From Bacteroidota bacterium (GTDB taxonomy: Bacteria > Bacteroidota > Bacteroidia > NS11-12g > UBA955): a DNA stretch of 64,000 nucleotides. Below, piece after piece: positions 10,541 to 48,840 of the stretch (position 1 is the stretch's first letter; every line of letters starts with the position of its first letter). A program made the position numbers and the translations under genes. The notes under the pieces were generated by a model. That model was not told the origin of the DNA. It saw nothing but the letters and a program-made list of their open reading frames with translations, and searched no databases. Location: contig SYIL01000004.1 of the NCBI GenBank assembly GCA_005798825.1, forward strand, positions 62,001 to 126,000, read 5' to 3'.

Positions 10541-13500
10541 TTAAAAATTCCACGACATGCATAAATGTTGAACGGGACACTGCATTTGACCTTCTTTTAT
10601 ACCCCATGCAAATTCATAACGCAAGGGGGTTTTTAGAATTGTTGCAGACAGTCCCATTCCAATACCAACGAGGTAGGGGTTCCGTTTTGCTGTAACCGAA
10701 ATACTGTAATCGGGCCTATGAATTATTTGGGTATTGAAAGGATTGTTCGGATCTGCAGGGCTTGCATTTAAAAATGCTGTGCCGACATCTAAAAATGTGA
10801 ACATATTGACAGACTGGGAGAATTCTTGTTTTAAGATGGTTTTTTTCAATAATTGATAGGGCTTGAACACCAGATTATTTTGAATTGCCATTGAACCAGT
10901 TCCCATTCGCTGCCCATTGATAAAACCCCTTACAAAGCCACCCTGCTGTCGATAAATATACTGACTCGCCAAAAAGCTTGGATGAATTTGGGTTTCCCAC
11001 TGGTCATTGCTTGTCCAACCCTCTGATCCACCAACCCAAAAAAGGGTTTTATTAGATCCTCGGGATAGGTCTAAGGATATGTCCGATTTGAAGTTAATCC
11101 ATTTATTGAATGATTTATAAATTTTTGATCGAATGAAAAGAACCAGCATATTGCCAGATTTAGAAGAATTACTGGAATGAGTGCTCCATTGAGCAGATGC
11201 TTCAGTTTCAATAAAATAACGCATTTCCGTTTCAGGTTTTTTACTGGAATAAAAATGGTTCATCCTACACTGAAGCCCATAAAGTTGGTATTTTTTATGT
11301 TGAAAATTTGCAAATCCTGGATTTGAAACCCTGCTAAAATTCAGATCATTTTTACCCCATGCACCCAAGAATAATTGTAAATTAGGAAGCCAACTACGCG
11401 ACAATCCGAGGGAAAAAAAGGTAGTGGTATTTTTCTTGTTGGCATTTTCATTCCATCGATAATTTCGATTTCTTGTAATGAGTGATTGTTCTATTTGGAA
11501 GCGATCCAATCGAATTATTTGGCTTAAACTAAGCCCAATTCGACCTGCATCTATGGTTGATAAAAGCCCTGCCGTTATTTGGTGTTTGTGTTTCGCATCC
11601 AATAGGCACAAACGAATTTGAGGGGTAAAAGGGGAATTGTATACCATAGCAGGGCCAATTTCTCGCATATAGGGCAATAAATTATATTCTTGATTGCCCA
11701 AAAATAGTCCTCCATGGGAGAGAAAATAAAAATCGTAATTATACGATGAATCAATATTTCCATTGTATTTTGATTGAGATTGTTTTTGTAAACGACGAAG
11801 CCACGATTGCATTGGGAAAGAGGATATATAATGCCATGTATCTTGGTTGTTTTGGCCTTGATTGTTGTCAGGGCTGTAGCGTATATCGAAATTGGGAATT
11901 GTGGGAATATTGTCTTGAAGCGCGTTGTTCTTGACCAGCGTTTCCAATTCTCTTTTGGTATCAGAATTAAGGTCAAGTCTTCTTAAGGTATTGGCTTTAT
12001 TCGCAAAACTATATTCTAGAATATTTCCCAACTGGGAATTTGAAGAAAAGCTTTGGTTGTAAAAACTATTTTTTACTTCTGACTGCCAACGATAATCTGC
12101 CGTATTGGAAAACTGATAAAAACGAAGTCTCCACACTTCCCCTTGGTTTTGAACATAGCTAAACTTTCCCAAACCTTCAGAAATCATTCCCCGAATAATA
12201 GGCTTGGTTGTAAGTGTATCCCTTCGTAAAATTTGTTCATCTCCCTTATTTATAGAAATAAATTTGAGTATGAACGTGTTTTGAAACTCTTCGATTCCAA
12301 TAGAAAAAAATCCTTGATTGAGGTTAATGGATACCACGGCTGCGCGTTCATCATGGAGTATTGTTGGCTTGCTGGAAACAAAATGGGGTTGGGGTCTTGC
12401 TGATTGGGTGTAAAAATGACTTTGCTGCAAACCATAGAAACAATCAATCCAATACCCCTGAATCGACTGATCGTTCTGTTTGCATTGGGCCCATAATATC
12501 GGAAGACTTGTTATACCTGAAAGGGTGTCTGAGCGCATCAATGTTGCTTCGAAATTCCTTGTTTCAATCAAGCATTTATGATTTTCTGATCGCATTATTT
12601 GAAATGTCGTACTGTCAGATAATCCACCAGCATTGAATACAAAAATGGGAAATTGAACATTGCTTAAAATACTGGGGATGGGTTTAACACAATTCCATAC
12701 CATTTTTTTTTCTGTTGAATTGTAAATAGAAATACGCTGTTCACCAATCGAAAACCATTCAATGGCATAGGAATGTGATTGACCTAATTGAAAAAGGTTT
12801 TTTATGGGCAAATTTTTGTATGGATGAATTAATTCAATTTCATTTTGAGAATAAATAGTCGAAGTAGTGGACGGTGTTCTAGCAGAATTCCATTTTGCAA
12901 ATGATTGGCCAGTTTGAAATTTGAATGCAGCTTCTGCATTTCCTGTATATTTCACAACAAACCACATCGCAGAAAAAACAGGTTTTCCATAGTTTACAAA
13001 CAAGTCTTTCCAAATCTTTTTCCCGTAAACTTGAGCTCCCAAAGGGTCAATTGCATTGGGTGATCGAAAAGCCCCTTGGCTTTCGAAATATGTATATTCA
13101 TCGGCTGCCGAACTATTCCATCCTTCGGCCAGGTAAGCACAAAATCCCTGCATAAACCAGGGCGGAAGTTTTTTGTATCCAACTTGTCTGAGCTGTTGAG
13201 CTACAGTAGTTCCATATAAAAATTCTTTGATCAATGCATGTGCGAAACAATATTGCAATTGATCTTTAATATTGGAATATGCCGTGTTGATATAGATTGG
13301 GTAGGTATGTTCTTGGGCAAGAATGGGGTTGATTTTTTGTCTTTCAATCCAAATTATATTGCGTCCAAGAGCCAGGTGGTAATCATCTAAGTCTGTGAAG
13401 AGTGACAATCTAAATTCTCCACGTAATTTATATCCAAGCAACAACTCAAAGGCTCGCATTGTATTTTCTGTAAAACTAAAAATTGAATCGACGCATACTT

Positions 13501-35829: not shown

Positions 35830-38499
35830 ATGGAAGAACTAGACGAAAATACCGAGAGAATTATATCCATCAACATTGAGGATGAAATGAAAACTGCTTA
35901 TATCGATTATTCGATGTCTGTTATTGTTTCCAGGGCATTGCCCGATGTAAGAGATGGACTTAAGCCCGTTCACAGAAGGGTTTTGTTCGGGATGAATGAT
36001 TTGGGTTTGGCCTCGAATAGAGCCCACAAGAAATCAGCCCGTATTGTTGGTGAGGTTCTCGGCAAATACCATCCCCATGGCGATAGTAGTGTTTACGACA
36101 CAATGGTTCGAATGGCACAGAGTTGGAGTTTGCGCTATCCCTTTGTAGATGGGCAAGGCAACTTTGGGTCAGTAGATGGTGATCCGCCAGCGGCAATGCG
36201 TTATACCGAAGCGCGTTTAAGGAAAATAGCGGAAGAGATGATGGTCGATCTCGACAAGAATACAGTTGATTTTAAACCCAATTTTGACGAAAGTCTTGAA
36301 GAACCTTCGGTAATGCCCGCCAAAATTCCCAACTTATTGGTTAATGGTGCGAGTGGCATTGCGGTAGGGATGGCCACCAATATGGCTCCACACAACCTCA
36401 CAGAAGTATGCGAGGGGATTATTGCTTACATAGAAAATAAAGAAATTACGGTTGAAGATTTAATGGCCTATGTCAAGGCCCCTGATTTCCCTACTGGTGG
36501 ATCAATTTATGGTATCGAGGGCATCAAAGATGCTTTTGAAACTGGTAGAGGTAGGATTGTGATGCGAGGCAAAGCAGAAGTGGAGTTGTCTAGTACCGGT
36601 AAAGAGATGATTGTCGTTACGGAAGTTCCATATCAGGTAACACCTTCTCAAATCATTATTAAAACAGTTGATCTTATTAACGAAAAGCTGATTGATGGTA
36701 TTTCAGCAGTTCGCGACGAAAGTGGGCGCCAGGGAATGCGAATTGTGTTTGATATAAAGCGAGATGCAATTCCGAATATTGTATTGAATCAATTGTATAA
36801 ATACACCCCTTTACAAAGCAGTTTTTCTGTCAACAATATCGCCTTGGTGAATGGACGTCCAGTAATGTTGAACTTAAAAGACATGATTCGCCATTTTGTA
36901 AATCATCGCCACGAGATTGTTCAACGTAGAACCCAGTTTTTATTAGACGAAGCCCGCAAACGCATCCATATTTTAGAGGGTCTTATTATTGCCCTTGATA
37001 ACCTTGATGCTGTTATTCAACTCATTCGAAAAAGCCGAACACCCGAAGATGCTCGCCTGGGTTTAATGGGACAATTTGGTTTATCGGATATCCAATCAAA
37101 AGCCATATTGGAAATGCGTTTACAGCGTTTGACCGGTCTGGAAATTGATAAAATTCGGGAAGAGTACAATAACATCGTAACTGAAATTCAGTACTATGAA
37201 TCTGTTTTGGCAAGTGAAGAATTGCGAATGGGTATTATCAAGCAAGAAATTGCTGAAGTCAAAGACAAATACGGTGATGATCGCAGAACGACGATTGAGT
37301 TCGGTGCCGGGGAATTTAATATAGAAGATTTAATACCCAACGAAGAGGTTGTGATTACAATTTCTCATATGGGATATATCAAACGAACCTTATTGAATGA
37401 ATACAAAGAGCAAAACCGGGGAGGGAAAGGGTTACGCGGTGTTGCCCATAGGGATGCAGATTTTGTTGAACACCTATTTATCGCCAGTACCCACAATTAT
37501 TTATTGTTGTTTACGGAGCAGGGCAGGTGTTTTTGGCTAAAGGTATATGAAATACCAGAAGGTCAAAAAGCCACGAAGGGTCGTCCCATACAAAATTTAA
37601 TCAGTATACCCAATGACGATAAGGTTAAAGCCTATCTAAACGTTATCAATCTCAAGGATGAAGAATACCTAAACAATAATTTTATTATTATGGTTACCAA
37701 GCGTGGGGTAGTGAAAAAAACATCCTTAGAAGCATACAGTAGGCCCCGAACCAATGGCATTAACGCCATCACAGTTCGCGATGGAGATGAGTTGTTACAA
37801 GCTTGTTTGACAGACGGAGCCAGTGAGGTTATTATTGCCAAAAGAATGGGAAAAGCCATTAGATTTCCTGAATCCAAGGTAAGGCCTATGGGCAGAACTG
37901 CTGCTGGGGTTAGGGGGGTAACTTTAGAATCAGCCCAAGATGAAGTAATTGGCATGGTTTGTGTTAATCCTAATTTGACGGCTACTACTATTTTGGTTTT
38001 GAGTCAAAATGGGTATGGCAAGCGTTCAGACCTCCAAGATTATCGCATTACTGGCAGGGGAGGGAAGGGCGTTAAAACCATCTCAATAACCGAAAAAACT
38101 GGAAGTTTGGTAGGCATTTTATTGGTGACAGACGAAGATGGCTTGATGATCATTTGCAAAAGTGGACTCACGATTCGAATGGCCATTGATAGGTTGAGAA
38201 TAATGGGCAGGGCAACCCAAGGGGTAAGGCTCATTAATCTCAAAGGAACAGATTCAATTGCAGGTTTGGCTAAATCGCCCAAGGAAGAAGACGAAGAAGA
38301 AGACGAAAGTTTAAGTTTAGCCATCTTGGCTGATGGAGAAATAGATGAACTGGGAATAGACAATGTAGAAAACACCACAAATTCGAATGGTCAGAACAAT
38401 GAAACTCGAGAAAAACATGACGAACATAATCAATCAAACGATGCGAGCGATGAAGACGACGACAGTTTACCAGTTGAAAATACAGAAGAAGATGAATAA
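35830..38499 (+). CDS. gyrA: DNA gyrase subunit A
   Basis: This 889-residue type II topoisomerase subunit nicks and re-joins DNA together with GyrB. Catalytic Arg124-Tyr125 lie in [10 protein letters not shown]. The quinolone region reads [17 protein letters not shown] with wild-type Ser86 and Asp90. The C-terminal pinwheel starts with a GyrA box NRGGKG (variant of QRRGGKG), which separates it from ParC. The last 75 residues form a very acidic tail (for example EEDEEEDES and DASDEDDDS). The stop overlaps the start of the following TPR gene (ATGAATAA). Confidence 0.96.
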
Positions 38500-39715
38500 G
38501 ATACTCAAAACAGGGATTGGCTTTTGCTCAATGGTGTTTTTTTCTCACTGTGTCGCACAAAACAAAGTCGTTAATTCTGCCGAGTATGCATTAATGTCAA
38601 ATACCATAGAAAACCTTGTTATAGCCAAAGAGGAAATAGACAAAGCCAAATTGAATCCCAAGACCGCAGATGCCCCTAAGATGTGGTTGATTCGGGCAAC
38701 TGTATACAGCAGAATTGCAGCGGCCAAGAACAACGAGTTGCTCAAAGGATTAACTGCGAATGCAGGGTTGGAGGCTTGCCAGGCCATGAATAAGTTTTAT
38801 GCCAGCCCAATGAGCAAAAAACAGGAGGAAATAGAAACTGCAATTGGAGAGTCGGGAAATGCTTTTGCTGCAGGATACAATGAATCTTCCGGCTTGTTTT
38901 CAACAAAGAATTATGATTTGCTGTGTGTGTATTATTTAGAATTGTTGAATTTATATGGTCATCTCGATACATCAATGACCAACAATCTCACCAACAATAA
39001 AATCACACAAAACAGTATCATTGAAACCTATGCGCAGGCGGCATCGCTTCATAGTGACAAACAAATAAAGATTTCTATACTTCAAGGCTTGGTTGATAAA
39101 GGAATGCTTGTTCCAGCCGTAATAGAAGGTTTGTCTCGTTCGTATTTAACGGTTGGGGATACAATGAATGCAGAAAAATGCATACGAAAAGCACTATTAT
39201 CGACAAATAACGATGGAACTATATTCCAATTGCTGGTAAACTTATATGTTATACTAGAAAAAGAATTCATGCTTTTTTCTGACGTCAATAATCAAATTCT
39301 AATCGAACCCGATAATAGTCGTTTGTATTATACCCGTGCCTTTTTATATGAAAGCCAAAAAAAATACACTGAGGCGCTTGCCGATTATCGCAAATCGGTC
39401 GAACTGGACGAATTTAATTATGACGCAAATTTCAATTTAGGCCTTGGCCTTATGAAATACGAGAGTAGAAATCTCTACGACAAACGATCTGGAGCAACAG
39501 GAGCAAAACGAAAATTAATTGACGAAGAATTAAAAATGCTGTTTCAGGATGCCAAAAAATACTTAGAACGTGCATTAGACAACACCGATTATCCCATTGT
39601 AGACCAAATCAATATTTGCAAAGCACTCAAATCGGCTTGCCTTGAGATAGGAGATACAGAATCAGTTTCCAAATACACCCAATTAATTAAAGGAATGGAA
39701 GAGGAATCAAACTAA
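38492..39715 (+). CDS. TPR-repeat protein coupled to gyrA
   Basis: The 407-residue exported protein begins [20 protein letters not shown]; the signal ends near CVAQ. Tetratricopeptide repeats are evident, notably [20 protein letters not shown] and [20 protein letters not shown] near the C-terminus. The first half is a more diverged helical repeat. The in-frame ATG at 38387 lies inside gyrA; 38492 is chosen for the signal peptide and because it overlaps the gyrA stop as ATGAATAA. Translation should be coupled to gyrA. The function is unknown; a similar TPR protein after gyrA is, to my knowledge, common in Bacteroidota. Confidence 0.8.
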
Positions 39716-39857: not shown

Positions 39858-41015
39858 TTAAACATTCCAGGATTTCCAATAATCTGGGTCTTCCATATCC
39901 ATTGCATCTTGTGTAATCATTAATGGATGAAATGGATCTATCATTACAGACAATTCATTGGTTTCTTTTGTATTGAGGCTTTTTTCAACAGCTCCAGGAT
40001 GTGGACCATGAGGAATTCCTTTGGGGTGCAAGCTAATCATTCCTTTTTCAACATGATTTCGACTCATAAAATTGCCTTCTACATAATAGAGAACCTCATC
40101 ACTGTCTATATTGCTGTGATTATAAGGTGCTGGGATCGACAATGGGTGGTAATCGTACATCCTTGGAACAAAACTGCAGATTACAAAGTTTCGGCCTTCA
40201 AATGTTTGATGCGTTGGCGGTGGCATATGAAGTCGGCCTGTAATGGGTTCAAAATTGTGAATACTAAAGGCATAAGGGTATAAGTATCCATCCCAACCGA
40301 TTGCGTCAAATGGGTGTGTTCCGTATGTATAAGGCCAAATCATGCCTTGTTTTTTTATTAAAACCTTAAATTCTCCTTTTTCATCGTGTGTTTCAAGATG
40401 TTGGGGCAATTTTATGTCACGTTCACAATAGGGAGAATGTTCCATGAGCTGGCCAAGCTTGTTTTGGTAGCGTTTTGGGGGATATATGGGTGATGGAGAC
40501 TCAATAAAAAAGAGTTTGTTTCCCTCATCTGAAAATTCTAATTGGTATATTGTGCCCCTCGGAATCACCAAATAATCTCCATATTCAAAAGGGATTTGTC
40601 CATAAATCGTTTTGAGCATACCACTCCCTTCATGAATAAACAGCACTTCGTCTGCATCAGAGTTTTTATAAAAATACCCATTGAAGCTTTTGGTTGGAGC
40701 GGCTGACCCCAATTGGACATCAGCATTCATTAACAAAACCTTTCTGCTGCTTATATAATCAGCCTCTGGCTTGGTTTTGAATGTGAGAAAACTGCGGTGT
40801 TGCATATTTTTTTGCAAAGCAATCTTGGGCTCAACGCTCCATGGCTCCCCGATATGCGTTACAATTGTGGGTGGATTGCAATGGTAAACAAGGGAATAGA
40901 TACTGCTAAAACCTTCTGTGCTTACCAATTCCTCTGAATACAATGAACCATCAGATTTGCGGAACTGTGTATGTCGTTTGGCCGGAATTTGACCCGTTGT
41001 ATGATAAAATGGCAT
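39858..41015 (-). CDS. hmgA: Homogentisate 1,2-dioxygenase
   Basis: The 385-residue, iron-dependent cupin-type enzyme opens the ring of homogentisate in tyrosine and phenylalanine breakdown. Recognisable blocks are GYFYKNSDADEVLFIHEG (first cupin), HPFDAIGWDGYLYPYAF, PPPTHQTFEGRNFVICSFVP and PYNHSNIDSDEVLYYVEG followed by LHPKGIPHGPHPG, which hold the predicted His and acidic iron ligands and the second His. It stands alone: no fumarylacetoacetase or 4-hydroxyphenylpyruvate dioxygenase gene is in the window. The length is somewhat shorter than the human enzyme, as in other bacterial forms. Confidence 0.93.
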   Translation of the reverse strand: MPFYHTTGQIPAKRHTQFRKSDGSLYSEELVSTEGFSSIYSLVYHCNPPTIVTHIGEPWSVEPKIALQKNMQHRSFLTFKTKPEADYISSRKVLLMNADVQLGSAAPTKSFNGYFYKNSDADEVLFIHEGSGMLKTIYGQIPFEYGDYLVIPRGTIYQLEFSDEGNKLFFIESPSPIYPPKRYQNKLGQLMEHSPYCERDIKLPQHLETHDEKGEFKVLIKKQGMIWPYTYGTHPFDAIGWDGYLYPYAFSIHNFEPITGRLHMPPPTHQTFEGRNFVICSFVPRMYDYHPLSIPAPYNHSNIDSDEVLYYVEGNFMSRNHVEKGMISLHPKGIPHGPHPGAVEKSLNTKETNELSVMIDPFHPLMITQDAMDMEDPDYWKSWNV

Positions 41016-41144
41016 GGTGTTATTCGGTGACGAAATTAATCAATAGTATTGGTTTGATAAATGAGAAACAGCACAAACTTTTAAAATACCCTATTTTCAT
41101 GCCGATATTTCGATCTCATATTTTTTATAACAGGCATAAATCTA

Positions 41145-41152
41145 TATTTTTG
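41145..41152 (+). promoter_or_regulatory. TAnnTTTG -7 element (TATTTTTG) of the six-gene operon, nearly leaderless
   Basis: This is a perfect match with 4 nt (AACT) before the ATG at 41157. It is the only promoter-like site I find for the operon 41157-48840. Confidence 0.65.
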
Positions 41153-41156
41153 AACT

Positions 41157-42080
41157 ATGTGGATTAAGAAAAATTTGTTTTTTTTCTTTGTTACTACCCT
41201 ACTTTCTATGGTTTCGTGTACACAAGAAGAAACAATTGTTGTTGATAACAATAAAATACCCAATTACAAGATTGTTTCAACCCTGCGCATTGAAAATTAT
41301 GTGCAGCGTATTTTTATTGATGTATTGGGTCGAGATGCGACAGATATAGAACGAATTTCCTTAACCAACCAATTGAAAATCGCAGAATTACATGACTCCT
41401 GTAGGCGAAAGATTATTCATTTATTGCTTTTTGATACACTCTATCGTAGTGGGGATTCTTCTTATAGGCATGCTTTTTCCCAGCGAATTTATGATATATC
41501 CAAAGCCCGTTACATAGAAGGTGCGGAGGATGGTGTTTTTTGGCAACAAATTGGCAATTTGGGATTTGGAATATTGGTTGCTCGTCTTGATGGAGATTCT
41601 GTAAAGGTCCATGAGTACCTAGACCAACAAAAGATGTACAGCAATGTCTTGTCGAGTAAAATGCGATTTAGAAAAAACCTTATTGATTACAGACAAATGA
41701 GTTCCGTGATGATGAATAACCCCATTTACAATGTAATCAATATGAATAGTTTTAATTTTGTGAATGCTTCCTATGACGATGCATTATTGCGCAAGCCCAG
41801 TGACGACGAATTCAAAAGAGCCTATAATATCATTGAACAGAACGTTCCCAGCCCCATTTTTGGCAAATGGGCCTCCAACAAAAATGAATTTTGTACTGCG
41901 TTGACAGAATCTGATGCCTTTCACGAGGCTCAAATACGGTGGCTGTATTTTGTGATGGTTCAGCGTGAACCCAGCAATCAAGAGGTTATTCGCTTGTTTA
42001 AACCCTATTTTTCCGATCACAAAATTGAATCAATCATTGAAGAAATTTTAATTACCGACGAATATGCCCAATTCTATTAA
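41157..42080 (+). CDS. Lipoprotein with PSCyt2/DUF1549-like helical module (operon gene 1)
   Basis: The 307-residue lipoprotein has lipobox MVSC (residues about 18-21). Residues about 44-62 read RIENYVQRIFIDVLGRDATD, close to the opening of planctomycete PSCyt2/DUF1549 domains (hydrophobic helix, then LGR, then a T/P-containing turn). The C-terminus WLYFVMVQREPSNQEVIRL ... DEYAQFY repeats the same helix-R-x-P-x-x-E pattern. No catalytic motif is visible. It is the first gene of a six-gene operon and overlaps gene 2 by 17 bp. I do not recognise a named family for the full length. Confidence 0.7.
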   Translation: MWIKKNLFFFFVTTLLSMVSCTQEETIVVDNNKIPNYKIVSTLRIENYVQRIFIDVLGRDATDIERISLTNQLKIAELHDSCRRKIIHLLLFDTLYRSGDSSYRHAFSQRIYDISKARYIEGAEDGVFWQQIGNLGFGILVARLDGDSVKVHEYLDQQKMYSNVLSSKMRFRKNLIDYRQMSSVMMNNPIYNVINMNSFNFVNASYDDALLRKPSDDEFKRAYNIIEQNVPSPIFGKWASNKNEFCTALTESDAFHEAQIRWLYFVMVQREPSNQEVIRLFKPYFSDHKIESIIEEILITDEYAQFY

Positions 42081-42561
42081 ACAATTTTCCTGGTTTCTGT
42101 TACTGGGTAGTGCCCTGATTGTTGCCTGTAAAAAAGAGCAAACCGTTGTATTTGGGGTAAACAGAGTGGGTATTTCTGAAGATAAAAGCAATAAAACCAA
42201 AAAGAAGAATGGTGCAGAATATATTTCTATTTTGTATACCAATTTATACCAAAAGGCGATCTCCCCCAACCAATTATACAAAACCCAAAACGTCCTGTAT
42301 TCGATTGGTGACCAAGATGTGGCCAATGAAATGTTATTGAGTAATTATTTCAATACTGGAAGCATTGTAATGCCGAGCAATGCGATTATGCGAAGCGATA
42401 TCGAGGCATTTGTAGTCAATACATTCAAACGGTTTTATCTAAGATACCCCAGCGAGGGCGAAAAAGCTTTTTTTAAGCAATATATAAGTAAAAACAATGC
42501 GGTAAGTGTAGAGATGGTTTACACAGCATTTGCTACAAGCAAAGAATATCAATACTATTAA
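42064..42561 (+). CDS. Small lipoprotein, paralogue-like module of gene 1 (operon gene 2)
   Basis: The 165-residue lipoprotein has lipobox IVAC (residues about 19-22). Its C-terminal half, DIEAFVVNTFKRFYLRYPSE through to SKEYQYY, has the same layout as the end of gene 1: helix, R-x-P-x-x-E, helix, then an EYxxxY terminus. It resembles DUF4214/PSCyt2-type helical modules. It overlaps gene 1 by 17 bp and is followed after 8 nt by the DUF1501-type gene, so it probably works with both products. Confidence 0.65.
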   Translation: MPNSIKQFSWFLLLGSALIVACKKEQTVVFGVNRVGISEDKSNKTKKKNGAEYISILYTNLYQKAISPNQLYKTQNVLYSIGDQDVANEMLLSNYFNTGSIVMPSNAIMRSDIEAFVVNTFKRFYLRYPSEGEKAFFKQYISKNNAVSVEMVYTAFATSKEYQYY

Positions 42562-42569
42562 CCCATAAG

Positions 42570-43910
42570 ATGAACCGAAAAAAATTTATTCAAAAAAGTT
42601 CTATGGCATTGGGCGCTGGTATTGTTGCTCCATATTTGTTGCCCTCTGGTAGATTGTTTGCAAAAACCGGCAGCGTTAAAGCCGACCATGTTGTATTGGT
42701 TATGTTTGCAGGAGGTGTTCGTCAACAAGAAAGCATATTGGGCCGGTATTTAGAGGACAGTCAAGGGGTTTTGGGTGCTGCCGGCAATATTATGCCAAAT
42801 TTGTTTGAAGGGAACGCCCCTACTAAAAAAGTGGTTTACGGAACATCCATTGCTGGCTTACCCAATGGCTCAGAGCCAATTCCAAAATTACTCACCCAGA
42901 GTATGGAAAACAGTGGTGTTTTATTTCCCGAACTAAGGGCCTTGAGTGCCGGGCATTATGTTGGATTAAGCACGCTGCTCACTGGAAATACCGGTACGGC
43001 TCAAGGATTAAGGGTTAGGCCTAGATATCCCACAATATTTGAATATCTGCGCAAACATGCCGGATTCAAGGCTACGGATACCTGGTTCATTGGAAATGGA
43101 ATTGGGAACTCTACCCCATTGCTGAATTCCAGCAATCACCCCGATTATGGTTTGCAATACGGCGCCAACATGTTTGCTGCCCCCGTAACCTTTTCTGGTT
43201 CCGGCAGAGAGGTTTTGGGAAATTCCAAGACCTATACCCGTGCCGATTTGGAACCCATGTATTATATCAAAAATTTTTTAGATAGATCCTTTGCCCTTTC
43301 CAAAGACCAAATTGCGAGTGTAAGCAATACCGATGAGGAGCGAACCCAAATCAAAGATTTTATTAAGAGTGTATTTGCAAAACAACAAGCTGGACAATTG
43401 GCAATGCCCCCTGTTTTTGACAATGGCGATGCAGTTAATGTAATGTATGCAGCGGAAGTATTACGCGAATTTAAGCCCAAAATGTTGGCTGTGAATATTT
43501 CAAGTGTTGACGGTTGCCATAGTAATTTTACAGGATATCTTCAAAACCTCCATAGAGCCGACCATATTACGGGATGGCTTTGGCAACACATTCAAAACAA
43601 TATCCCTGAGATGAGTGGCAATACCATTATGATTGTAGCGCCAGAATGCGGCCGAAACGAAAAGCCCAATCCAATTTTGGATCAAAACGATTGGCTTGCA
43701 TTCGACCACAGCGACAGAAATGCCTTGCGTGTTTGGAGTCTCATGCTCGGAAAAGGAGTATCTCGCCAACGTGTGGGCAGTGAAGCCAAACCCATTGGAA
43801 GATTAACCGATATTGCCCCAACCATTGCCGATATTTTCGGGGTTTTAGACCCAGTTATGCAATCTGGCTTGCTAGATCCATTGGCAAAAAGCCAGTTTTT
43901 ACAGTTATAG
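42570..43910 (+). CDS. DUF1501-type protein, alkaline-phosphatase superfamily (operon gene 3)
   Basis: The 446-residue protein has a Tat-like leader MNRKKFIQKSSMALGAG with RK in place of RR. Residues about 38-52 (ADHVVLVMFAGGVRQ) match the first strand of DUF1501 proteins. Further on, IMIVAPECGRNEKPN and WLAFDHSDRNALRVWSLMLG correspond to the FGRT and DH metal-site elements, and IGRLTDIAPTIADIFGV is the phosphomutase/sulfatase-like C-terminal signature. It should be an exported, metal-dependent hydrolase or a derived binding protein. The nucleophile is not obvious and the substrate is unknown. It sits 8 nt after gene 2 and 2 nt before gene 4. Confidence 0.8.
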   Translation: MNRKKFIQKSSMALGAGIVAPYLLPSGRLFAKTGSVKADHVVLVMFAGGVRQQESILGRYLEDSQGVLGAAGNIMPNLFEGNAPTKKVVYGTSIAGLPNGSEPIPKLLTQSMENSGVLFPELRALSAGHYVGLSTLLTGNTGTAQGLRVRPRYPTIFEYLRKHAGFKATDTWFIGNGIGNSTPLLNSSNHPDYGLQYGANMFAAPVTFSGSGREVLGNSKTYTRADLEPMYYIKNFLDRSFALSKDQIASVSNTDEERTQIKDFIKSVFAKQQAGQLAMPPVFDNGDAVNVMYAAEVLREFKPKMLAVNISSVDGCHSNFTGYLQNLHRADHITGWLWQHIQNNIPEMSGNTIMIVAPECGRNEKPNPILDQNDWLAFDHSDRNALRVWSLMLGKGVSRQRVGSEAKPIGRLTDIAPTIADIFGVLDPVMQSGLLDPLAKSQFLQL

Positions 43911-43912
43911 CC

Positions 43913-44881
43913 ATGAACCCAAGCGTTTCTGCCAAAAAATCACCCCAAATTCTACTGATGTTTCTGTGGTTCACGCTGGTATCCTTGTTTGTTTTATCAT
44001 CTTGTAATGCCGACAAGAATACGATCAAAAACCCCTACCCCAACGGAAAAGACAGCATTGTAAAGAAAAAAGACACCCTTAATTATAGAACAATTCAAGG
44101 ACTTCACACAGGATTGTTTAAACCAACCTGCGCCAATAGCGGTTGTCATGATGGCAATTTTGAGCCCGATTTTCGGACCGTTGAAAGCTCCTATTATAAC
44201 CTAGTGGCACAACCTGTAATTAAATTGGATACCCAAGGCAATTATACGACCCGTGTAATCCCCGGAAATGCCACGTTGAGTATGTTGTTGCATCGCATGC
44301 GAGTAGATCTAAATGGAAATTCGGGAATTATGCCTTTGTCTTTAGAGCCCAATAGCAATTACCCCATAGAAAAGGACACATGGCTCGCGCGCATTGGCCT
44401 GTGGATTGATTCGGGTGCGAAAGACTGGTTGGGCAGAAAGCCACCAAGTATCGACTTTCCTCCTCAATTGCAAGGTGTTCAGGCATTCTCTAATGGCAGT
44501 GTATTGACCCGAAAAAGCCGATATGAGGCTATTGAAGCACTGGCGGGTGAGACCCTGCAATTATGGTTTTCGTTGAGCGACGACAAAACCCCCATTTCAA
44601 ATTTAACAAACATGCGAATCAATTGGTCGACTGACCCCAATGTATTCGACCCGTTAAACGAACGTCCTTTGGTCAAAGGCAGTGTGAAAACAATGCCTGG
44701 TTTATACAGAACAAGCACAGATTATATGTGGTACTTTGATTTTAATGATCGAACTACGCAGCCTTTTGGGGTCTATTGGTTTAGAATTACCCTCAGCGAC
44801 GCAGTCAATAAAGAATTCAATTTACCCAATTCAAATAGTATGTTTTTTATTAAAAAATACTTCGCTGTTAAATTTAATTAA
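43913..44881 (+). CDS. Lipoprotein with CX4CH haem motif, PSCyt1-like (operon gene 4)
   Basis: The 322-residue lipoprotein has lipobox LSSC (residues about 28-31). Residues about 60-160 contain FKPTCANSGCHDGNFEP, a CX4CH variant of the cytochrome c haem site, then PGNATLSMLLHRM and GNSGIMPL, where a Met could be the distal ligand. This is the layout of PSCyt1-like cytochromes. The last 130 residues form a beta-rich domain with LQLWFSLSDDKTPISNLTN. It is co-translated with the DUF1501-type gene (2 nt gap), so electron transfer or redox sensing at the envelope is possible. Confidence 0.75.
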   Translation: MNPSVSAKKSPQILLMFLWFTLVSLFVLSSCNADKNTIKNPYPNGKDSIVKKKDTLNYRTIQGLHTGLFKPTCANSGCHDGNFEPDFRTVESSYYNLVAQPVIKLDTQGNYTTRVIPGNATLSMLLHRMRVDLNGNSGIMPLSLEPNSNYPIEKDTWLARIGLWIDSGAKDWLGRKPPSIDFPPQLQGVQAFSNGSVLTRKSRYEAIEALAGETLQLWFSLSDDKTPISNLTNMRINWSTDPNVFDPLNERPLVKGSVKTMPGLYRTSTDYMWYFDFNDRTTQPFGVYWFRITLSDAVNKEFNLPNSNSMFFIKKYFAVKFN

Positions 44882-44889
44882 TATAATAT

Positions 44890-45330
44890 ATGAAACTGAT
44901 TTACATTATATTAACTATTTTTTTATTTTGTTATGGGTGTAGCACAGAACAGTATTATATAGGCAATCCCATACCCATTCTGAGCAACCCCAGTTTAAAC
45001 CAAAATACCTTTAAACAATTTACAGATACCGTTGTCATCGGATTTGACTATAAAGATGGTGATGGTGATTTAGGCTTTGAAAAAGCCGACTCCCTAAACC
45101 TTGAAATACGCGATATCCGATTTGCGAAACCCGATTATTACCATATCTCTCCACTGGCTCCTTTGGGTAAACAAATTTCTATCCAAGGAAGTATTGCATT
45201 GCGCCTAAAAAATGTATTTTTATTGGGCGCCGGCCAATTGGAAATTACCAAATTTCAAATACGTGTTAAAGACCGAAACCAACATTGGAGCAACTTAATT
45301 GAGACAAAAAGCATCTCTATTATCAAATAG
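44890..45330 (+). CDS. Small beta-rich lipoprotein (operon gene 5)
   Basis: The 146-residue lipoprotein has lipobox CYGC (residues about 14-17). The segment FDYKDGDGDLGFEKADS contains a DxDGDxD-like acidic loop that could bind calcium, followed by beta strands ending TKFQIRVKDRNQHWSNLIE. I recognise no family beyond general similarity to short Bacteroidota lipoproteins with a YKDGDGDLG motif. It lies 8 nt after gene 4 and 12 nt before gene 6. Confidence 0.65.
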   Translation: MKLIYIILTIFLFCYGCSTEQYYIGNPIPILSNPSLNQNTFKQFTDTVVIGFDYKDGDGDLGFEKADSLNLEIRDIRFAKPDYYHISPLAPLGKQISIQGSIALRLKNVFLLGAGQLEITKFQIRVKDRNQHWSNLIETKSISIIK

Positions 45331-45342
45331 ATTCTAAATCTC

Positions 45343-48300
45343 TTGTCTACAAAGTATCCTATATTGTTCATTTTGGCTTTCATGCTTTCAGATTCGTTGA
45401 TTGCACAATCCGATTTTACACAACAGAATGGACGTTTTCGAATATGCAAAGGGTTTATTGAAGACTCCAACGGCTTCCAAAATAAAAGCGATTACGACCA
45501 TAACGAAAATTCGACCATGACACTGTCTATGCCAGGGTCACGGTCTATTTCATTGCAATTTTCTTCTTTTTGTACTGAAAAAGACAATGACGTATTGCGC
45601 ATTTTTGACGGACAAGATACCAATGCAACTTTAATTGGAACCTACAGCGGAAAGGCTGGGCCAGGTACAATTACCTCTAAAGACAGTTTTATTACCCTTC
45701 ATTTCAGATCGGATAAAAGCATTAAATGCAGTGGTTGGAAGGCCAAAATACTCATAGACATGATCACCCCCATTGCAGTAAAATTTTCACAAACCGGAAA
45801 TGGAATCCCAAAGCCCTCTTGTCTTGACTCCGTCTTTCGATTTGCATTAAATCAGAGTATACCCTGCGATTCAATTAATGTAAACAATACCTCTATTGTT
45901 GGTCCGGGCAATCCGTCTATTCGTATGATAAAGGCGATTAATTGTAGCAATGGCAAATGTTCTATGGTCGAAATAACGACAACACCTGGCTTGTATTTGA
46001 ATGGCACATATACCCTAACCCATGTTCACGGTTACCGAGATTATTGTGACAGTGCATATAGGTTAACGTCAATTTTCAAGATATCCATTAGCAACTGTCC
46101 TATAATTGTTCAACTGAGTAGCAATAAAGATACCCTGTGCAAAGGGGAATGTGTAAAAATCACTTTGAGTGTTAAGGGTGGAGATTCAACCAAATACAAA
46201 TACACATGGATTCCGTCAACCCTCAAGGGAAAGGGTCCTTTTACACAATGCCTTACCCAAAATACCCGGTATATTGTTTTGGTTGAAGACGGCAGTTCAA
46301 CCCCGGGGCGTGATACGCTTAATATTGTTGTTTTGAGGCCACCCTCTGCCCAAAAAGATACACAAGTATGTTATTATTCGCCCAATTTTACATTGCGGGC
46401 CAGTCCACCAGGTGGAAAATGGAAAGGATTGGGTATTGTAAATGCACAAACAGGCGAGTTTAAGCCCAGTCTTGTATGGGGCAATTCCGTTGTATATTAT
46501 CAAATAGGGGGCTGTAATGATACAGTCATTGTTTCTGTGACTGCGCCATCGAACCTCGAAAATGCTTTTTGCCCGTCACCGCTCAGTTTTCCTGTGTACT
46601 GGTATTGGCCCGCCGGTGGAACGTGGACGGGACCCAAAATTAGCAGTGCAGGCATTTTTAAACCTGATACTGCAGGAAAATACGTGGTAACATATACGTG
46701 GAAAGGCTGCACGTCGTCAAAAATTATTTATGTTCAATCGCTCAAAGTGCTCAAATATGATACAGTTTGCGAGTCTTTAACAAACGCAACCCTAACTTTT
46801 TCTCCCAAAGGCGCATACCCCAATTACTTTGCAGGGCTGGCCAATTATTATACTGGAGACTATAATCCTTCATTGATGGGTGGTCCGAAAAACTATACTA
46901 TCATCTATGTAGTTCAGGGTGGTTGTAGAGATACCACGCGACTTACCCTTTTGCCAAGCGACGCGGGATTAAACGATACTTTTTGTCCTTTGGCAGGTGC
47001 CCAAACCCTCAAAGTTTTTCGACCCAACAGCAATTATAGTTGGAAAAGCAAGGGAATCAATGGGACAGGTACTATTTATGACCCTTCCTGGTGGAGGCCA
47101 GGCAAGTCAAATAAAGACACCCTTGTACTCTCGTCGCCTCGCTGCACCGACAAAAAAATGGTCTATATCATAGACAACAAGATTTTACAACCTGACACCC
47201 TTTTCTTTTGTAAAGAAGATAGTACAAGTTTGTTGAGCTTAAAAGGGGTAAAAACGTCAATTGAGGGAGGGAAATGGGTTGGAAATGGGGTTGTCAAATC
47301 GCTATATTTTAACCCTCGAATTACAGGAGTTGGAAAGTTTAGCATCGTCTATGACAACAAAGGTTGTTTAGACACATTGCCGGTGGTAGTTAGAGATAAA
47401 CCAAAGATACAAATAGATACATTTATGTGTATCAATAACAATGCATTACTATTATATAAAAAAGATGTAAATGGCATATTTTGGGGTCCTGGGATTACCC
47501 ATTCGAAGGGTATTTTCAATCCGTTGATTGCCAAAGAAGGTACCCATACAATATACTATAAATCGTCTGCGGGTTGTCTCAACCAAACCACCATCCAAGT
47601 AGATACAGTTTTGCCCATCAGTATTGTACAATCTAAGCCTTTTTGTTATAAGGATAGTTTATTTGGGCTCTCGGTCTCTCCTACGGGTGGAAATTGGTCA
47701 GGAACCGGCATTCAAAAAGGCAAATTTAACCCCGCATTTGCAGGTCCGGGCAAACACAGGGTCTATTATACTCTAAATACCAATGCCTGCAGGACATTAG
47801 ACAGCCTCAACGTATTTGTGAATAGCCCACTATTGTTGGAAATAAGTCCAGCAATCGACAGTGTTTGTTATGGGAAAATTGTCGAAATTCAAGCCTTGTT
47901 AACGGGGGGGAATGCCCAGCAATATCAAATACAATGGTCGCATGGTCAGACAGGGAACAAAACATTTTACGTCGCTACCCAAAGTGGTCAATTAACCGTT
48001 ATTGGAACTGATGGTTGCAGCGACTATGCCACTGCCCAAACCCGCATAATAGTGCATCCTAGAATTTGGTCCATTGCCACTACCAACCCACCCGTGTGCA
48101 AGGGACTTAATGGCTGGGCATTGGTAAATCTGGGAAATGGCAACCCTGCTACACGCAAATGGTTCCATGATCCTGTTTACAAAAAAGACACTCTTGTAGC
48201 CCCCGCTGGAAACCGATACCGTATTACATTAACCGATAAAAAAACAGGGTGTTTTGGTGATACTGCCATTGAATTACCAGGATACGATGCGATTCGAGCT

Positions 48301-48840
48301 GATTTTATGCTCCAAAAGAGTTCAACCGATGACTGCCTCACCCCACTCGACCAAACAGCTACATTTTTTAATCAATGTACAGGCGGAACCAAAGGAACTT
48401 GGTATTGGGGAGACGGCACTTCTAATTTATTTATTCCTACAGAAAATCCAATCCACACATTTGATGGATTGCGACTTTCGTATAAAATCCTGCTGGCAAT
48501 AGAAAATGAAGGGGGATGTAAAGACACCGCCATCCACTCAATTTGTTACAAGGATACAATTTTTGCGTATATACCCAATTCGTTTACCCCAAACGGAGAT
48601 GGAATCAATGATGATTTTGACTGCCGTCTCTATGGCGCCAATTTTATAGATTTACACATTGTCAACCGTTGGGGTCAGTTGGTATTTAAAAGCAATACCC
48701 TCAGCAAGAAATGGGATGGGCAGTACAACGGGAAAGATTGTCCGGAAGGCGTATACGGTATTTTTGTAAATTATAAGGGAAATCACCAAGGCAAAAAAAC
48801 TTTGTCGAGCTCTATCACACTGTTGCGGCCAAAGTCGTAG
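45343..48840 (+). CDS. Large T9SS type B (gliding-associated C-terminal domain) protein with CUB domain and tandem repeats (operon gene 6)
   Basis: The 1165-residue secreted protein has a signal peptide at residues about 1-22 ending LIAQ. A CUB-like domain (about 25-142) includes DNDVLRIFDGQDTNATLIG. About seven tandem modules of 70-80 residues follow, each with GGxWxGxGI, a G-x-F-x-P turn and one Cys-containing strand. A PKD-like domain (WYWGDGTSN) precedes the C-terminal IPNSFTPNGDGINDDF ... VNRWGQLVFK domain, the type B T9SS signal. The start is TTG at 45343, required to include the signal peptide. It is probably a surface adhesin or scaffold for the products of genes 1-5. Confidence 0.85.
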   Translation: MSTKYPILFILAFMLSDSLIAQSDFTQQNGRFRICKGFIEDSNGFQNKSDYDHNENSTMTLSMPGSRSISLQFSSFCTEKDNDVLRIFDGQDTNATLIGTYSGKAGPGTITSKDSFITLHFRSDKSIKCSGWKAKILIDMITPIAVKFSQTGNGIPKPSCLDSVFRFALNQSIPCDSINVNNTSIVGPGNPSIRMIKAINCSNGKCSMVEITTTPGLYLNGTYTLTHVHGYRDYCDSAYRLTSIFKISISNCPIIVQLSSNKDTLCKGECVKITLSVKGGDSTKYKYTWIPSTLKGKGPFTQCLTQNTRYIVLVEDGSSTPGRDTLNIVVLRPPSAQKDTQVCYYSPNFTLRASPPGGKWKGLGIVNAQTGEFKPSLVWGNSVVYYQIGGCNDTVIVSVTAPSNLENAFCPSPLSFPVYWYWPAGGTWTGPKISSAGIFKPDTAGKYVVTYTWKGCTSSKIIYVQSLKVLKYDTVCESLTNATLTFSPKGAYPNYFAGLANYYTGDYNPSLMGGPKNYTIIYVVQGGCRDTTRLTLLPSDAGLNDTFCPLAGAQTLKVFRPNSNYSWKSKGINGTGTIYDPSWWRPGKSNKDTLVLSSPRCTDKKMVYIIDNKILQPDTLFFCKEDSTSLLSLKGVKTSIEGGKWVGNGVVKSLYFNPRITGVGKFSIVYDNKGCLDTLPVVVRDKPKIQIDTFMCINNNALLLYKKDVNGIFWGPGITHSKGIFNPLIAKEGTHTIYYKSSAGCLNQTTIQVDTVLPISIVQSKPFCYKDSLFGLSVSPTGGNWSGTGIQKGKFNPAFAGPGKHRVYYTLNTNACRTLDSLNVFVNSPLLLEISPAIDSVCYGKIVEIQALLTGGNAQQYQIQWSHGQTGNKTFYVATQSGQLTVIGTDGCSDYATAQTRIIVHPRIWSIATTNPPVCKGLNGWALVNLGNGNPATRKWFHDPVYKKDTLVAPAGNRYRITLTDKKTGCFGDTAIELPGYDAIRADFMLQKSSTDDCLTPLDQTATFFNQCTGGTKGTWYWGDGTSNLFIPTENPIHTFDGLRLSYKILLAIENEGGCKDTAIHSICYKDTIFAYIPNSFTPNGDGINDDFDCRLYGANFIDLHIVNRWGQLVFKSNTLSKKWDGQYNGKDCPEGVYGIFVNYKGNHQGKKTLSSSITLLRPKS

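Follow-up and report, generated by a model that had tools for sequence, protein, structure and literature searches.

Proteins of PSCyt1-PSCyt2-PSD1 architecture (PF07635-PF07583-PF07587) are encoded in pairs with DUF1501 proteins (PF07394) in Planctomycetes, Verrucomicrobia and some Bacteroidota. The PSCyt, PSD, DUF1501 and DUF1800 relatives have been described as uncharacterised (PMC5615132, PMC4452313, PMC5122149), and carbohydrate-binding modules in PSCyt proteins give a hint of carbohydrate metabolism (PMC5615132). Because the PSCyt/PSD/DUF1501/DUF1800 sets have no known activity in these papers, function cannot be transferred from them to the operon analysed here, and no description of this six-gene operon was found in the literature searched.

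The operon, with genes g1 to g6, lies in a 64,000-nucleotide stretch of a Bacteroidota contig (SYIL01000004.1), hereafter the window. Like the PSCyt/PSD and DUF1501 pairs, it has a PSCyt1-like haem domain, a DUF1501-type partner, export signals and a helical protein encoded upstream of the DUF1501-type gene. It differs from them in that a gene of its own encodes each of the haem, helical and phosphatase-fold parts, the haem motif is CX4CH, g1 and g2 are short and linker-like, g5 is always present and a giant protein of the type IX secretion system (T9SS), type B, mostly so, and the proteins fall below Pfam cut-offs. In other Bacteroidota, PSD-type proteins were found encoded directly beside DUF1501 genes. 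The DUF1800-DUF1501 pairs also place a DUF1501-type protein beside an uncharacterised protein, with a Tat-like start and type IX export, but those pairs have no haem protein, and g1 and g2 gave no profile match to DUF1800; derivation of g1 and g2 from DUF1800 was rejected (hhalign probability at most 0.3%). One such pair is encoded in the window's own genome (L087:9500-12832, G000:C13), its DUF1501 protein bearing a T9SS type A tail, and DUF1800 is present in 51 of 58 relatives. With phycobilisome linkers and DUF4214 proteins, g1 and g2 share a fold resemblance and a repeat motif, but they are lipid-anchored, come from Bacteroidota and sit in an operon without phycobiliproteins. Finally, g6 resembles the SprB-like T9SS type B adhesins encoded with PorP/SprF in its CHU_C sorting domain, its Ig/PKD repeats and, in some relatives, an adjoining PorP/SprF gene, whereas its CUB start, mostly constant length and fixed place behind g1-g5 set it apart.

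Operon layout and co-inheritance

The six genes occupy 41157-48840 on the forward strand, as do all features within them given below. As the sequence-only reading had proposed, they are tightly packed, with gaps of at most 12 nt or an overlap (-17, 8, 2, 8 and 12 nt from g1 to g6, by ORF calls), and every product carries a predicted export signal: lipoboxes on g1, g2, g4 and g5, a Sec signal on g6 and a Tat-like N-terminus on g3, with RK in the window protein and RR in many relatives. Acidic residues, a candidate surface-export signal, were common after the Cys of the lipoproteins when inspected without a control set. Genes for cytochrome c assembly, PorP/SprF and TatC are present in the window's genome. 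The 5′ neighbour is a divergent homogentisate-dioxygenase-like gene (39858-41015), and an NFACT-like gene begins 22 nt past the end of g6. Farther off, the ORF called for a TPR protein (38387-39715) shares 113 nt with gyrA, and its true start is probably further in, at a signal-like stretch. Since the window's g1-g5 proteins alone were nearly blank in Pfam and NCBIfam, relatives and profile comparison were used for these five.

The promoter that had been placed at 41145-41152 did not hold up. The bases TATTTTTG are present there, but they end 4 nt 5′ of the g1 ATG, so that a transcript would begin within g1, and no TTTG partner was found at the correct spacing. In the window's genus, an alignment of 12 upstream regions placed a TA[CT]ATTTG element further upstream, with a conserved AAACTTG about 20 nt before it. 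The corresponding site in the window is 41110-41117 on the forward strand, where the bases, TCGATCTC, are degenerate. The genus-conserved bases 5′ of the operon, across 41030-41117, are CGAAACTAAT, AAATGA, CATAAACTTG and TA[CT]ATTTG, the last of these being the degenerate one in the window.

A search with g3 gave matches in 74 of the 108 genomes of the window's order; in a second order, 199 genomes yielded about 40 strong cases, mainly in one family (f9) that we take to be Saprospiraceae. The phylum-wide search (392 genomes) added a single full-length case, from a genome at the centre of the second order. The order g1-g2-g3-g4-g5-g6, on one strand, was found in every locus with a flank long enough, and the neighbourhood survey thus extended the arrangement from one genome to two orders, with 30 complete sets from the window's order and from Saprospiraceae and neighbours. 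The genes flanking the operon differ between lineages. This recurrence, without exception among loci of sufficient length, is far beyond chance, and the six-gene set is an ancient co-inherited unit. Among the 30 complete sets, all 15 pairwise gene-distance correlations were high (r 0.87-0.94) and none of 999 permutations reached them; this correlated divergence is a sign of shared history and does not amount to physical interaction. Median identity in these sets was 55% for g3, the most conserved subunit, and 31-40% for the other five.

Variant loci bear on the roles of individual genes. Five genomes (G061, G062, G096, G101 and G104) gave a weak or shortened g3 match. At three loci (L104:9384-10427, L105:9575-10591 and L106:9574-10662), the three whose surroundings were examined, a sole eroded g3-like gene of 338-362 aa lies between the divergent dioxygenase-like and NFACT-like genes, the same synteny as the operon. 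Read by eye, the genes of L104 and L105 keep all five motif blocks of g3 (GG, His, D-x-C-H, E-x-G-R-N and DH), and the more diverged gene of L106 has GG, D-x-x-H, D-H-G-R replacing E-x-G-R, and DH. Because a lone, eroded g3-like gene at this place in the three genomes has kept most of the motif residues, g3 is probably the active core of the set. In family f70, additional diverged copies of g1-g5 occur without an adjacent g6 (L198, L199 and L201), and for this reason g6 looks like an accessory part.

Linker-like lipoproteins and a DUF1501-type protein

The product of g1 (41157-42080) is a 307-aa lipoprotein whose AlphaFold2 model is all-helical (pLDDT 90.7). Its top Foldseek match was the phycobilisome LCM linker 3osj (probability 1.00, E 0.45, TM by target 0.52), and the top 50 included other linkers as well; when the g1 profile was searched against the PDB with hmmsearch, 10 of 11 matches were phycobilisome linkers (ApcE and others, best E 0.0045). 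Since no Foldseek match had E below 0.001, the likeness suggested by the model is a fold resemblance, short of proof. The protein has two linker-like repeats. The N-terminal one (residues 42-92, 41280-41432) has an N-Y...LGR motif with N47, Y48, D55, G58 and R59 invariant, and the relatives' matches to DUF4214 (E 2e-6 in L050) and PSCyt2 (0.01-0.03) fall within it. The C-terminal one (residues 252-306, 41910-42074), which ends in DEYAQF, takes in the relatives' PBS_linker_poly and DUF4214 matches, a weak match to the C-terminus of PSD1, and the PDB linkers.

The 165-aa lipoprotein encoded by g2 (42064-42561) had been called a small paralogue, and it does share the g1 repeat: hhalign with signal peptides removed found a weak likeness over several repeats, paralogous to parts of g1. 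Its DUF4214-like repeat (residues 114-163, 42403-42552) scored E 0.0092 in the window and 1.7e-5 in the best relative, with a DUF4214 match in 10 of 15 g2 members. Lipoprotein-lipoprotein hhalign matches of up to 88% were rejected as a signal-peptide artefact, being gone or weaker once trimmed. The window's g1 and g2 themselves lie below the DUF4214 and PBS_linker_poly cut-offs; among relatives, DUF4214 reached 2e-6, with the g1 proteins of L050 and L203 exceeding the cut-off, and PBS_linker_poly 2.4e-7, among the A2 members. The assignment of g1 and g2 as PSCyt2/DUF1549-like survives only marginally, in fragments (Pfam E 0.0068-0.03 for PSCyt2 and 0.0031-0.07 for PSD1, the best of each in relatives; hhalign E 0.01-0.04), DUF4214 and phycobilisome linkers being the better match. 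The weak g1 matches are collinear: those to PSCyt2 cover its beginning and those to PSD1 its end.

The third gene, g3 (42570-43910), encodes a 446-aa protein with a Tat-like export signal. Its AlphaFold2 model has a modest mean pLDDT of 71.6 and a pTM of 0.79, and Foldseek returned 263 PDB matches at E<0.001 with probability 1.00, including sulfatases, LtaS and alkaline phosphatases, which places the modelled overall fold in the alkaline phosphatase superfamily. Profile searches of the PDB with g3 and with g4 gave nothing useful. The claim that g3 is of DUF1501 type was borne out by profile-profile matches, a series of motifs and the Tat-like start, but not at the Pfam cut-off: the window g3 had no Pfam match of any kind, and PF07394 matched none of 11 members. 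Against two local comparison sets of 14 and 21 sequences, representatives of which Pfam confirmed as PF07394, hhalign gave probabilities of 84% for the PSD-coupled and 68% for the DUF1800-coupled set, with about 90 columns aligned. Weak phylum-wide g3 matches (L058-L085) were considered as DUF1501 proteins and rejected, appearing from their neighbourhoods and starts, where inspected, to be ordinary alkaline-phosphatase-superfamily proteins; they were left out of the DUF1501 evidence.

In g3 and in both DUF1501 sets, a His precedes [TS]G by eight residues and is followed further on by D-x(1-2)-H, E-x-G-R and DH; a Gly-Gly occurs in g3, in the DUF1800-coupled set and in some of the PSD-coupled proteins. 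In g3 the invariant G48-G49 (42711-42716) stands where catalytic relatives carry a metal-ligand D-G, and H129 (42954-42956, H-x8-[TS]G), invariant in g3 and a His in both DUF1501 sets as well, occupies the usual nucleophile position, at which sulfatases have the nucleophile Cys of their C-x-P-S-R motif. Farther along are the invariant D314-x-C316-H317 (43509-43520; D-T-H or D-x-H in DUF1501), E359-x-G-R362 (43644-43655) and D379-H380 (43704-43709), the invariant Cys316 being extra in g3. By motif spacing, the Ser/Thr/FGly nucleophile and the first Asp metal ligand are thus absent, with His and Gly in their places. These motifs argue for a DUF1501-type protein unable to use the usual phospho- or sulfo-enzyme route, and, because a His stands where sulfatases and phosphatases have their nucleophile, they argue against ordinary ester hydrolysis by g3.

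The putative haem lipoprotein, g5 and the T9SS cargo

The g4 gene (43913-44881) encodes a 322-aa lipoprotein with a PSCyt1-like haem domain followed by a C-terminal domain of no recognised type. Its CANSGCH sequence (44129-44149) is a CX4CH haem-binding motif in which C73, C78 and H79 are invariant; M140 is also invariant and is likely the distal haem ligand. When g4 was compared by hhalign with PSCyt1-PSCyt2-PSD1 proteins, their PSCyt1 region matched with a probability of 86.6% (trimmed sequences) or 92.9% (untrimmed) over 101 columns that take in the MP and WI..GA motifs, the haem motif being CX4CH in g4 and CX2CH in PSCyt1. The reading of g4 as a CX4CH haem lipoprotein of the PSCyt family is therefore upheld by motif and profile likeness and not by Pfam PSCyt1 (PF07635), which matched none of 12 g4 members. 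The g4 protein has a PSCyt1-like mono-haem domain with putative covalent haem. In L050 (about 11377-11835) the g4 homologue is just 162 aa and retains the haem domain, with the C-terminal domain either broken or absent. A small c-type cytochrome lipoprotein (CAGCH) is encoded about 1.2 kb 5′ of the operon in another relative (L044:7008-7382).

The g5 gene (44890-45330) encodes a 146-aa lipoprotein with an acidic D-x-D-G-D-G-D-type loop; it is kept in all loci, and no Pfam or NCBIfam family was found for it. The largest product, the 1165-aa g6 (45343-48840, TTG start), is a T9SS type B cargo, and its expected architecture was solid in Pfam and NCBIfam: a CUB domain (45487-45747; PF00431, E 2.6e-12), Ig/PKD-like repeats and a CHU_C or T9SS type B sorting domain (48571-48801; PF13585, E 6.3e-17; TIGR04131, E 4.2e-13). 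Distant relatives have g6 proteins of the same architecture, with CUB, repeats and CHU_C. The length of g6 is mostly about 1150-1210 aa, with a single exception of 1730 aa (L200). PorP/SprF proteins are the typical partners of T9SS type B cargo, and a PorP/SprF gene lies directly 3′ of g6 in L088 and L200.

Possible roles of the six-gene set

The operon is real and conserved, and is best seen as a variant of the unexplained PSCyt/PSD-DUF1501 systems, one with a linker-like scaffold and an added type IX surface protein. Our preferred interpretation, to which we give a probability of about 0.45, is that its products form a single complex in the cell envelope and that it is a Bacteroidota variant, split into separate genes, of the PSCyt1-PSCyt2-PSD1 and DUF1501 pairs. 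We infer such a single complex, metal binding by g3 and electron exchange between haem and g3 as follows. The g1 and g2 proteins would be lipid-anchored scaffolds that keep g3 attached to g4 at the outer membrane. The His/Asp/Glu cluster of g3 (H129, D314/H317, E359 and D379/H380) may be a metal site, its geometry being predicted from sequence, at which a reaction other than ordinary ester hydrolysis would take place, with the g4 haem passing electrons to or from it. A spacer or calcium-bound adaptor could be provided by g5, and g6 would bring substrate or surface to the complex, whose most likely task would be to modify a surface-bound polymer, either oxidatively or in a metal-dependent reaction.

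A quite different interpretation, which we consider rather unlikely, makes g3 a pseudo-enzyme and g1-g5 a chemistry-free platform for assembling and anchoring the g6 adhesin. The His at the nucleophile position and the Gly for the first metal ligand, in g3 and DUF1501 alike, would suit it, as would the resemblance of g1 and g2 to the purely structural phycobilisome linkers and the PorP/SprF genes after g6 in L088 and L200. However, the motif residues persist at the g3-only loci, where neither a partner gene nor g6 adjoins, g1-g5 copies occur with no g6 beside them, and it is hard to see why a pure scaffold would conserve a haem domain. That domain could instead suggest a conduit that delivers electrons to an acceptor outside, g4 providing the terminal haem and g6 the contact with the surface, and a mono-haem lipoprotein within an envelope operon, in a genome with cytochrome c assembly genes, is consistent with this; yet the operon has one haem motif and no multihaem or porin-cytochrome partner, and g3, the subunit under the strongest conservation, is left without a role, which makes a conduit improbable.

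The relationship to the PSCyt systems could itself be questioned, if g1-g5 were unrelated by descent to the PSCyt/PSD/DUF1501 sets and helical-linker, alkaline-phosphatase and haem folds had been combined independently. The match of g1 and g2 to PSCyt2 and PSD1 is weak, and better to DUF4214 and PBS linkers, but the combination itself, the DUF1501 motifs held in common, including the His, and the collinearity of the weak g1 matches all speak for common descent, and we regard independent assembly as unlikely. Returning to the preferred single complex, one may extend it, possibly though doubtfully, to the whole family: within the alkaline phosphatase superfamily, DUF1501-type proteins would make up a redox branch that is metal-dependent and His-centred, and the operon would be their most compact, fully separable form, in which the enzyme and its partner haem protein are held on the cell surface by phycobilisome-linker-like lipoproteins, next to a T9SS adhesin.

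Here the haem, scaffold and phosphatase-fold parts each have a small gene to themselves, so that they can be expressed and deleted one by one, and the linker-like fold of g1 offers a first clue to the structure of the helical partners. PSCyt, PSD, DUF1501 and DUF1800 proteins are widespread yet uncharacterised, and if the redox-branch extension is true, the PSCyt/PSD/DUF1501 proteins that are abundant and unexplained in Planctomycetes would be built on this architecture too.
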